Below are positions 5,768 through 9,578 of a DNA stretch of 64,000 nt, one piece after another. The stretch comes from Allobosea vaviloviae. Lineage in GTDB: Bacteria > Pseudomonadota > Alphaproteobacteria > Rhizobiales > Beijerinckiaceae. The notes beneath the pieces are model-generated. The model had not been told where the DNA came from. It did not search any database and saw nothing but the letters and a program-made list of their open reading frames with translations. The position numbers were made by a program, and so were the translations under genes. Location: NCBI RefSeq assembly GCF_001298265.1, contig NZ_LGSZ01000053.1, positions 62,001-126,000 on the forward strand, in the 5' to 3' direction. Every line of letters begins with the position of its first letter. Position 1 is the first letter of the stretch.

Positions 5768-6802
5768 TCAGGCCGCCTTCTGCCGCGGCTGGATCAGCTT
5801 GCGGTTGATCAACACCTCGGCGATCTGCACCGCGTTCAGCGCCGCGCCCTTGCGCAGATTGTCGGAGACGCACCAGAAGGCCAGCCCGTTCTCGACGGTG
5901 GCATCCTCGCGGATACGGGAGATATAGGTCGCGTCCTCGCCGGCCGCCTCGTGGGGGGTGGCGTAGCCGCCGGGCTCGTGCTTGTCGATGACGAGGATGC
6001 CGGGCGCCGCGCGCAGAACCTCGCGCGCCTCGTCGGCGGTGACGGGCTTCTCGCACTCGATGTTGACGCTCTCGGAATGGCCGATGAAGACCGGCACGCG
6101 CACGCAGGTCGCGGTCAGCTTGATCTTCGGATCGAGGATCTTCTTGGTCTCCGCCATCATCTTCCACTCTTCCTTGGTGAAGCCGTCCTCCATGAAGACG
6201 TCGATCTGCGGGATGAGGTTGAAGGAGATGCGGGCGGGGAACTTCTTGGTCACGACCTCGCCGGCCGAGAACACGGCGCGCGTCTGGTTGAAGAGCTCGT
6301 CCATGCCCTCCTTGCCGGCGCCGGAGACCGACTGATAGGTCGATACGACGACGCGCTTGACGACGTACTTGTCATGCAGCGGCTTCAGCGCGACGACGAG
6401 CTGCGCGGTCGAGCAGTTCGGGTTGGCGATGATGTTCATCTTGCTGAAGCCGGCGACGGCCGCCGCGTTCACCTCCGGCACGACCAGCGGAACGTCCGGG
6501 TGCATGCGCCAGGCCGAGGAGTTGTCGATCACGACGCAGCCCTGCTGGCCGATCTTGGGCGACCATGCCTTCGAGATCTCGCCGCCGGCCGACATCAGGC
6601 AGATGTCGGTATCCGAGAAATCGTAATGCTCGAGCGACTTGCACTTCAGCGTCTTGTCGCCGAACGAGACCTCGGTCCCGATCGAGCGCGAGGAGGCCAG
6701 CGCCACGACCTCGCTGACCGGGAAGGCCCGCTCGGCCAGGATGTCCAGCATCTCGCGGCCCACATTGCCAGTGGCGCCGACGATCGCGACCTTGAAGCTC
6801 AT
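5768..6802 (-). CDS. asd: aspartate-semialdehyde dehydrogenase
   Basis: NADPH-dependent enzyme converting L-aspartyl-4-phosphate to aspartate semialdehyde, the branch point to lysine/diaminopimelate, threonine and methionine. 344 aa, the normal length. N-terminal Rossmann motif VAIVGATGNVGREML; active-site region IIANPNCSTAQLVVALKPL with the catalytic Cys in NPNCST; QSVSGAGKEGMDEL; substrate-binding RVPVFIGHSESVNIE with the histidine. Monocistronic, ending in the terminator at 5711-5740. Confidence 0.96.
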   Translation of the reverse strand: MSFKVAIVGATGNVGREMLDILAERAFPVSEVVALASSRSIGTEVSFGDKTLKCKSLEHYDFSDTDICLMSAGGEISKAWSPKIGQQGCVVIDNSSAWRMHPDVPLVVPEVNAAAVAGFSKMNIIANPNCSTAQLVVALKPLHDKYVVKRVVVSTYQSVSGAGKEGMDELFNQTRAVFSAGEVVTKKFPARISFNLIPQIDVFMEDGFTKEEWKMMAETKKILDPKIKLTATCVRVPVFIGHSESVNIECEKPVTADEAREVLRAAPGILVIDKHEPGGYATPHEAAGEDATYISRIREDATVENGLAFWCVSDNLRKGAALNAVQIAEVLINRKLIQPRQKAA

Positions 6803-7203: not shown

Positions 7204-8358
7204 GTGAGGACGAACGCGCCGCAGGATGCAGCGCGGCAACACGGGTTCGGGGTCGTGTCAGGTCATATCGCGTCGCTTCTGCTTGACCGGATCAGGCTGT
7301 CCTGGCCTGCTCTGCAGCATGTCCGGCCAGGGCTGAGCCAGGCATGGGCGCGGCAGACATGGGCGCGGCAGGCATGGGCGCGGCTCGCCAGGGTCGATCT
7401 CGCCGCCGCCCTGATCCGCTTCGCCGACGCCATCGAGACCGGCTTCCGCTATCTCTGGCGCGCACTTTCCGGCCCGCGCCGCCTGCCCGTTCTGCTGCGG
7501 TTGCCCGGTTTGCGCCTGACCGGCGGTCTGGTCTGGCGCAGCGTCGCGGCAGCGAGCGGCATCGGCCTGACGACGGCGCTCGTCACCGCCCTGTCGCCCG
7601 GCAGCGAGGTGACGCTCGCAAGCCTGACCGTGCAGGAGGCGCAGCCCGTTCGAGACGTCCGCCATGAGCCGCGCGCCAGTCAGCGCAGCCGCGAAAACTG
7701 GATTCCCATCATCAGGCCAATCCCGATGTTCGGGCTGGAATCGCCTGAACTCGACCGCGCCTCCGCGTCCCTCGAGGCACGCCGCAGCCCGGACGGCTCC
7801 CAGCGCGAGGACGTGCTGGCCTTCTCGGCCTTCGCCGAGCAGAAACCGCATCTGCTGCTCCGCTTCAGCGTCGAGCATGGTCGATCCGACCTGTCGCAGC
7901 CCTTCATCATCGCTTTGGTGCGCGAGGCCGCGTCGCGGGCGATGTCGGTCCAGCGCAGCGGCACGCCGACCGCGATGCAGACACGTTTCGGCCCGGTCGA
8001 GACCGCCGATGCGACGCTCAGCGACGGCGAGGTCAGCCGCGCCTGCATCGCCTTCCGCATGGATGCAGGCGCCCTGCCGCTGTCGATGAGCGGCTGGTGG
8101 TGCGGCGCCGGCAAGCCCGCGGACCGGCAGCAACTCGTCTGCCTGATCGACCGGATCGACCTGCTCAATGCGGGCGACGACCGCGCCCTGCGCGCCGCCT
8201 TCGCCCGCACGGAACTGAACCGGCAGCCGGCCTGCGCTCCGCCGCGGCTGTCGGCCTCCGGCCGAAAGCTGTCCTGGCTCGACGCCGACGCGGCGACGCC
8301 CGCCTTGCGCACCAAGAGCATCGCTGCCGAACACGGCAAGCCGAAACCCAGGCGCTGA
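7204..8358 (+). CDS. unrecognised membrane-anchored protein, tandem paralogue A
   Basis: 384 aa if translated from the GTG at 7204; GTG at 7255 is an alternative, because the 7204 codon sits inside a hairpin. No family recognised. The N-terminal third is basic, with a 3x5-residue repeat (Q-A/T-WAR) encoded by a 15-bp tandem repeat. A probable membrane segment follows (SGIGLTTALVTALSP, about residues 118-135), then a presumably periplasmic domain. The C-terminal part shares a pattern with the next gene: TRFG, then R-x-CI-x-FR, G-x-x-C-x-AG, L-x-C-x-ID and a final Cys, so four cysteines line up. The two genes are 15 bp apart and surely co-transcribed. Confidence 0.7.
   Translation: MRTNAPQDAARQHGFGVVSGHIASLLLDRIRLSWPALQHVRPGLSQAWARQTWARQAWARLARVDLAAALIRFADAIETGFRYLWRALSGPRRLPVLLRLPGLRLTGGLVWRSVAAASGIGLTTALVTALSPGSEVTLASLTVQEAQPVRDVRHEPRASQRSRENWIPIIRPIPMFGLESPELDRASASLEARRSPDGSQREDVLAFSAFAEQKPHLLLRFSVEHGRSDLSQPFIIALVREAASRAMSVQRSGTPTAMQTRFGPVETADATLSDGEVSRACIAFRMDAGALPLSMSGWWCGAGKPADRQQLVCLIDRIDLLNAGDDRALRAAFARTELNRQPACAPPRLSASGRKLSWLDADAATPALRTKSIAAEHGKPKPRR
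7339..7383 (+). repeat. three 15-bp tandem repeats inside paralogue A
   Basis: CAG(G/A)CATGGGCGCGG repeated three times with one variable base, encoding Q(A/T)WAR three times. The reading frame is kept, so this may be a length-variable segment. Confidence 0.85.
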
Positions 8359-8376
8359 CGGCAGGCAGGGCTTGTG

Positions 8377-9171
8377 ATGTCCGACTCACGCACCCAGACG
8401 ATCACCGCATTGGGCGCCACCGGCCGCGTCGCGATGGGAACCGCGCGCTTCCTCTTCCTGGCGCTGGGCGCAGGCGTGTTCCTCGCCATCCTGCTTGTCG
8501 GCTGGTGGCTTTCGGGCTTCGTTCCGACGATCAGCCATGGCACGCCCGCCTTCACCTGGGCGCCCGAGCAGCTCGCCATGACCAGGTCGACATCGGTCAC
8601 CGCGACGAGTCCTTTCCGGGGGCGCGAGCAGGGCCTGCAATTTGGCGGCCCCGGCACGGAGGGGCCCTTCGCGGCGATGATCCTGGCCGAGCGCAGCGAC
8701 AGCGCCGTGCCCTTCACCCTGACCACGCCGGTGTTCTGGCAGTTCGCGCCGCTGCGCGTGCTCGCCCCCCGCGTCGGCGGCCCGCACTACACCATGACCA
8801 CGCGCTTCGGGCGCTTCACCGGCCGCGACGTCTACTATCGCGAGAGCGACGGTCGGACGCGCACCTGCATCATCTTCCGCAATGGCTTCGAGACCTCCGA
8901 ATTCGCGCTGGGCGGCTACTATTGCGCAGCGGGCGTGCAGAGCGCCGATGCCGCCCCCCTGGCCTGCATGATCGACAAGTTGCAGATCGTGCCCGGCAAG
9001 AACCCCTCGCCTGCGGTCGCCTATCTCGCGGAACGCGCCGGCAACGCGCCGCAATGCGCCAATACGACCTTCTACCAACCGGGCACACGACAGGTCGTCC
9101 GCGACCGCAATGGCGGCGTGGTGCGCATGAGAGGCGACACCAATGATGCCTTTCCGCTCTGGGCCCGCTGA
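8377..9171 (+). CDS. unrecognised membrane-anchored protein, tandem paralogue B
   Basis: 264 aa from the ATG at 8377 (GTG at 8374 is also possible). One strong membrane segment at about residues 25-48 (LFLALGAGVFLAILLVGWWL), then an exported domain. This domain is homologous to the C-terminal part of paralogue A: MTTRFG, TCIIFR, GGYYCAAG, LACMIDKLQIV and a last Cys in PQC. I do not recognise a named family. The four conserved cysteines in a periplasmic domain suggest structural disulfides; that is inference. The shorter cytoplasmic tail lacks the repeats of A. Confidence 0.72.
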   Translation: MSDSRTQTITALGATGRVAMGTARFLFLALGAGVFLAILLVGWWLSGFVPTISHGTPAFTWAPEQLAMTRSTSVTATSPFRGREQGLQFGGPGTEGPFAAMILAERSDSAVPFTLTTPVFWQFAPLRVLAPRVGGPHYTMTTRFGRFTGRDVYYRESDGRTRTCIIFRNGFETSEFALGGYYCAAGVQSADAAPLACMIDKLQIVPGKNPSPAVAYLAERAGNAPQCANTTFYQPGTRQVVRDRNGGVVRMRGDTNDAFPLWAR

Positions 9172-9272: not shown

Positions 9273-9578
9273 ATGTCCCCGTTCAAGCGTCTTGCAGCCG
9301 TTCTCGCCCTGTCGGTCGCTGCGTCGACCGTGATGGTCGCGATGGCGGAGGCGCAGAGCCGCCGTGGCCCGCTGCGCGTCACCGTCCAGAAGCGCAGCTA
9401 TTTCGACCTCGGCAATGTCGTGCCGGTCGGCTCGCTGAACCGCTATGCCAGCCAGCATTTCGCCGCGGCCCCCGCCTATGCCAGCTTCGGCGGCTTCTAT
9501 GGCGAGGACACCCTGCCCAGCCGCATCGGTTCCGGCGCGAACCCTTTCGCCAACACCTTCGAGACGCCGCGCTTCTGA
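9273..9578 (+). CDS. small exported protein of unknown function
   Basis: 101 aa from the ATG at 9273, which has GGAG 7 nt upstream; an in-frame ATG at 9240 adds 11 residues before the signal peptide. Sec signal MSPFKRLAAVLALSVAAS... with a likely cleavage after AEA. The mature part starts RRGPLRVTVQKRSYFDLGNVV and contains VPVGSLNRY, Y-F-G-rich segments and no cysteine. I cannot name its family. It is followed at once by a palindromic element and a convergent gene. Confidence 0.7.
   Translation: MSPFKRLAAVLALSVAASTVMVAMAEAQSRRGPLRVTVQKRSYFDLGNVVPVGSLNRYASQHFAAAPAYASFGGFYGEDTLPSRIGSGANPFANTFETPRF

Follow-up and report, generated by a model that had tools for sequence, protein, structure and literature searches.

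As two neighbouring genes of Allobosea vaviloviae had been described as a tandem pair of membrane-anchored paralogues belonging to no recognised family, we were interested whether the two are indeed related, how the pair arose and what kind of domain it encodes. The window analysed here comprises 64,000 nucleotides of contig NZ_LGSZ01000053.1. Gene A (7255..8358, forward strand) encodes a four-cysteine protein of 367 aa that is predicted to be membrane-anchored and represents the core form of the family, and gene B (8377..9171, forward strand) encodes a Bosea-only paralogue of 264 aa, read from an ATG that is common to nine B genes. The A frame is open from a GTG at 7204 (384 aa, used for residue numbers below) to the stop codon at 8356-8358. 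The GTG at 7255 is the more likely start, as genomes G015, G035 and G019 each offer a start codon for A at this position and, in G015, the open frame contains none further upstream. Only 18 bp separate the A stop from the B ATG at 8377 on the same strand, confirming the reported adjacency, and from this gap A and B are probably co-transcribed. In G026, the A gene is spread over two reading frames, reflecting a frameshift or an assembly error.

The paralogy claimed in the initial annotation was clearly recovered. BLASTP of the exported halves led to an E value of 3e-11 (28% over 151 aa), profile-profile comparison to a probability of 97.3 (E 1.7e-11) and Smith-Waterman alignment to a z of 17.8, a score that none of 2000 shuffles reached; with the cysteines masked, z was still 12.0. 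Between the N-terminal parts, relatedness was undetectable (z 0.7; 458 of 2000 shuffles reached the score), and the homology of A and B is confined to their exported halves. Both proteins contain exactly four cysteines, as had been noted, at positions 281, 300, 313 and 344 in A and 164, 183, 197 and 227 in B, with near-identical spacings of 19-13-31 and 19-14-30 respectively. The shared order of motifs held for TRFG, RxCIxFR, G(W/Y)(W/Y)C, LxCxID and the last cysteine. The PEL/PEQ region proposed to precede them was rejected as a shared motif: it lies outside the BLAST-aligned stretch and is not conserved in the B proteins of G006, G013, G009 and G032. In an alignment of 51 A-type sequences (54 loci read, minus four Bosea loci, plus the A of the window, i.e. 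50 non-Bosea rows and one), each of the four cysteines was present in 51/51, as were the glycine of the FG motif and the glycine three residues before the second cysteine, and the FG phenylalanine in 49/51. All nine B genes retain the four cysteines and G-x-x-C, with FG found only as (F/W/Y)G, and the four cysteines are kept in 73/73 rows of the set used for the tree described below, B included. The family is defined here by four invariant cysteines, the first preceded by (T/S)(R/K)FG and the second lying in G-x-x-C. From seven genome pairs each, dN/dS was 0.15-0.27 for B and, calculated over the last 270 residues, 0.22-0.45 for A, indicating purifying selection on both and thus two working genes.

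One membrane segment per protein had been annotated. By hydropathy alone, this segment is clear in B (residues 25-43; 8449..8505, forward strand; mean 2.49) and marginal in A (residues 113-131; 7540..7596, forward strand; mean 1.47, with all 19-residue windows at or below 1.6). As the A segment is preceded by 17 Lys/Arg against 5 Asp/Glu in the 384-aa frame, we infer an N-in orientation, and both proteins would be anchored in the inner membrane with a periplasmic, exported domain. The stretches modelled for these predicted domains are 7690..8325 in A (cysteine codons from 8044, 8101, 8140 and 8233) and 8515..9168 in B (8866, 8923, 8965 and 9055), both on the forward strand. A longer cytoplasmic region with WAR repeats was said to have been gained by A, which did not hold: A is the form found throughout the family, and its long N-terminus is common to the Bosea A genes listed, although G034 and G031 have shorter ones (G017 was left out of this comparison). 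A tandem repeat at 7339..7384 (forward strand), with a 15-bp unit present in 3.1 copies, encodes the WAR units. They were rejected as a gained domain, given that the nearest relatives (G015, G035, G019) carry one unit or none. Judged from these relatives, the repeat is a strain-level tandem expansion, and it stands outside the mechanism proposed below.

The two genes differ in their distribution. A-type genes were found in 37/37 Bosea genomes and strong B matches (E 3.9e-108 or better) in 9/37, each directly 3' of A. When 149 genomes of the window's bacterial family were searched with a B profile, with up to 17 candidates scored per genome, only the two Bosea carriers scored strongly among the matches listed (3e-161), and the next listed match was at 2.1e-13; weak matches in the five other Bosea genomes of this sample lie inside the A gene. 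The broad profile A5 detected the protein family in at least 118/149 genomes and at least 37/43 genera of the window's bacterial family, in at least 36/297 genomes and 11/123 genera of an order-wide sample, and in at least 4/289 genomes of a class-wide sample, all four from the window's own family; none was among the matches listed for the remaining 285. These genome counts are lower bounds, as part of the candidates was scored per genome. Most genomes with a match in the order and family samples carry a single family gene (among the matches listed), so adjacency of a pair does not hold throughout the order, a point that the initial annotation had raised for checking. From these profiles, A is the widespread, family-wide form of an unnamed Hyphomicrobiales protein family, and the A/B pair is a genus-level elaboration of it. 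A plasmid search with A led to one 31% match on a 2.8-Mb Methylobacterium bullatum replicon, in a stretch without annotation, and viral contigs searched with B contained no relative. One genome of bacterial family f20 (G263; loci L067 and L096) has two members, one of the usual f20 type and a second that is closer to those of Bosea and lies next to an asd-type gene; the latter may reflect a transfer between bacterial families.

For the origin of B, a tree of 73 domains was calculated, leaving out G017 and G026 (the split A gene mentioned above) and built on longer rows, as a shorter trimming had cost two B rows their last cysteine. The B rows grouped as a single clade (100/100) with a branch length of 3.2 changes per column, and the grouping of Bosea A was weakly supported (61/68); as the bootstrap is unsettled and long branches meet in this tree, the attachment point of B is unreliable. 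All nine B carriers fall into a single A clade of 23 rows (94/96), in which the other 14 rows are without B, and the presence of B on an A-only tree takes at least five changes. In 26 non-carrier loci, the next gene follows A after 79-314 bp (G016 was not measurable), a distance too short to contain a remnant of B. A duplication behind A, followed by fast change and repeated loss, is likely the simplest account, since B always lies directly 3' of A and was seen only in Bosea. The 'local duplication' of the initial annotation is supported to this extent, and the long branch and its unreliable attachment keep it at likely. Alternatively, B could be a paralogue of older date, or a gene acquired from elsewhere, that was kept beside A in some Bosea strains, as might be expected from its long branch (outside all other rows at the midpoint root, a root used for drawing only), from its patchy occurrence with at least five changes, and from the missing remnants. 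We regard this as the less probable origin, because B never occurs away from the 3' side of A, its carriers all belong to a single A clade, and the only B-scoring genomes among the 149 of the bacterial family, within the candidates scored, are the two Bosea carriers.

Searches of Pfam and NCBIfam with A, B and further members gave no credible match; weak, scattered ones included DUF7434 in 3/20 members of A (best E 0.0078) and, in 1/29 members, a TonB model (E 0.0026), and none was to a Mog1p/PsbP-like family. Likewise, no credible match was obtained from PDB sequences with B and two profiles (best E 0.04), and a literature search, which was not exhaustive, found no paper on this family. The known-domain match named by the initial annotation as evidence against novelty was therefore absent from these three sequence libraries. 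The Pfam and NCBIfam versions used here hence contain no model for a predicted envelope family that occurs in at least 118 of 149 sampled genomes of its bacterial family.

AlphaFold models of both exported domains were calculated from eight alignment rows each; since either alignment contained A and B, the two models are not independent. Mean pLDDT was 48.3 for A and 47.8 for B with pTM of 0.50-0.51, and a better-scoring core at residues 91-160 reached block means of 53-75 and 60-71 respectively. The structure prediction of the C-terminal halves, which had been suggested as a check on their relatedness, was in part concordant: at a mean pLDDT of 48, both models show strands and, from the third quarter onwards, share a four-strand meander with two helices behind it; they differ ahead of the meander, with a short strand in A and a helix in B. 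For the A model, the two best Foldseek matches were DcrB (E 0.013, prob 0.89), with PsbP, LpqN, Mog1 and SciW at ranks 7, 13, 14 and 20-23; no match was below E 0.001, and the first 12 include unrelated entries (for example a Staphylococcus protein, TplEi, PaIch and Tsi3). For B, the first five were EagT6 and SciW (best EagT6, E 9.3e-4, prob 1.00), followed by PsbP at ranks 12, 15 and 17, Mog1 and LpqN at ranks 19-22 and, lower down, helix-grip proteins of the PYR type. TM-scores to the listed structural matches did not exceed 0.44, and a viral structure library searched with the B model gave no coherent match. We take SciW and EagT6 to be Eag proteins, and LpqN, MTC28 and Apa presumably share the Mog1p/PsbP-like superfold, which is characterised by a roughly six-stranded antiparallel sheet flanked by helices.

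Between them, the available parts of PMC7716261, PMC4524185 and PMC12881460 assign DcrB to DUF1795 and to the Mog1p/PsbP-like proteins. In the portions available, the Eag chaperones are also DUF1795 (PMC12881460), and PA0094, another DUF1795 protein, adopts a Mog1p/PsbP-like fold (PMC4524185). The models thus suggest that a Mog1p/PsbP-like (DcrB-like) alpha-beta fold is the rather probable one for the exported domain, and the family would be a new branch of what is probably a known kind of domain, unmatched in sequence libraries. The term 'undescribed' of the initial annotation accordingly fits the sequence libraries searched and less so the predicted fold, which points to a known superfold. 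It is also conceivable, if clearly less probable, that the domain has a fold of its own or another superfold such as the helix-grip, and that the Mog1p/PsbP-like matches are a product of low-confidence models, in keeping with the mean pLDDT of 48, the low TM-scores and the helix-grip proteins in the B list. Sequence profiles, too, gave no similarity to DcrB-family proteins: the curated Pfam model PF08786 matched neither A, B nor 29 members of profile A5 and had no match in the window genome (G000), hhalign of the family against three PF08786 proteins did not score above 45 decoy families, and for B the reversed DcrB alignment outscored the true one. Against a mere artefact speaks that both models, built for different query sequences, rank the same uncommon superfold first, and we keep the Mog1p/PsbP-like fold as the working assignment.

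If so, the closest known relatives in structure are DcrB and DUF1795 (PF08786) including the Eag chaperones, the best structural matches of both models, from which A and B differ by the lack of any sequence or profile match. DcrB is a membrane-anchored periplasmic protein according to the available text of PMC7716261, resembling the anchoring predicted for A and B. However, DcrB is a lipoprotein, whereas an N-terminal membrane segment is predicted for A and B (marginal in A), and the three PF08786 proteins fetched contain at most one cysteine each in contrast to the four of A and B. PsbP, Mog1 and LpqN were also among the structural matches of both models, but no sequence similarity was found to them in the PDB, and organisms, location and partners differ. 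A further comparison is PA1624 of Pseudomonas aeruginosa, a periplasmic, distant Mog1p/PsbP-like domain that was missed by prediction and has a disulfide, features that A and B would share; unlike the single domain with two disulfides predicted for each of A and B, it consists of two domains with one disulfide, and no membrane anchor is reported in the available part of its description (PMC7716261).

By the secondary structure of the models, two consecutive strands contain the first cysteine and, close to the end, the second; the helix that comes next contains the third, and the fourth lies beyond the final helix. Cysteines of exported domains are usually found as disulfides, and the four invariant cysteines would probably form two of them that brace the domain. 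Binding of a metal or cofactor by the four cysteines would equally explain their retention in 51/51 sequences. We consider this quite improbable, as the cysteines are 13 to 31 residues apart without a CxxC pair, the broad alignment shows no invariant His or Asp, and disulfides are to be expected in this compartment. With disulfide bracing thus preferred, and on the basis of the homology, invariant cysteines, distribution, gene linkage and purifying selection established here, A and B can be pictured as periplasmic Mog1p/PsbP-like modules at the inner membrane with a role in interaction or assembly, a reading to which we would give an even chance. Each protein would be anchored by its N-terminus (N-in) and carry a single exported domain of some 150 residues. 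The most likely function would be to mediate protein interactions or assembly in an envelope complex of the inner membrane, as has been proposed for further envelope proteins of the Mog1p/PsbP-like type. Mog1p/PsbP-like proteins likely act via protein-protein contacts (PMC4524185, in the part available), and DcrB functions together with YciB in membrane fluidity, as stated in the accessible text of PMC9487459. A would perform the ancestral job of the family, and B would be a Bosea side copy that has diverged towards a second partner or towards pairing with A.

The gene neighbourhood offers a first candidate for such a partner. Downstream of B, a small exported-looking protein with the motif RSYFD (9273..9578, forward strand, 101 aa) is encoded, which is the single match in the window genome, gave nothing over the cut-off in Pfam and may represent a separate family without a name. 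A gene with this motif, RS(W/Y/F)(L/F)D, is next on the 3' side in 35/36 Bosea loci (G017 was left out of the Bosea neighbour counts). In a first set of non-Bosea loci, it neighbours the family gene in 16/29 compared to 1/84 control tiles of the window, with 16/16 in bacterial families f1 and f36 and 0/13 in f20 and f50; the association is weaker in a wider set (24/50 loci), where 8/21 of the added loci, mostly from further f1 genera, have it. In several other genera, relatives with RSWLD or RSFLD are encoded at the corresponding position. In G016, A is present and the RSYFD neighbour is absent, also by whole-genome search. As a speculative extension, for which we see well under an even chance, the disulfide-braced Mog1p/PsbP-like module and the small RS(W/Y/F)(L/F)D protein may constitute an undescribed Hyphomicrobiales envelope system that exists in an A-plus-B version in Bosea. 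The invariant cysteines, the small exported neighbour and the fold lead make the family directly testable.

On the other side, a divergent asd-type gene with semialdehyde dehydrogenase domains in Pfam (5768..6802, reverse strand) lies upstream of A and is found there in 32/36 Bosea loci; of the other four, one is at a contig edge and the rest are G034, G031 and G026. In 19 non-Bosea regions, an asd-type gene adjoins the family gene in 10 and a leuB-type gene lies within 15, with Pfam identity confirmed for the asd of the window and one leuB-type protein. This linkage looks like old gene order and not like a functional clue. The f20 loci have other neighbours, namely a different unnamed small protein of 84-96 aa (L104 5291-5545) and a divergent L,D-transpeptidase-like gene (L105 6529-7209), which flank the family gene.
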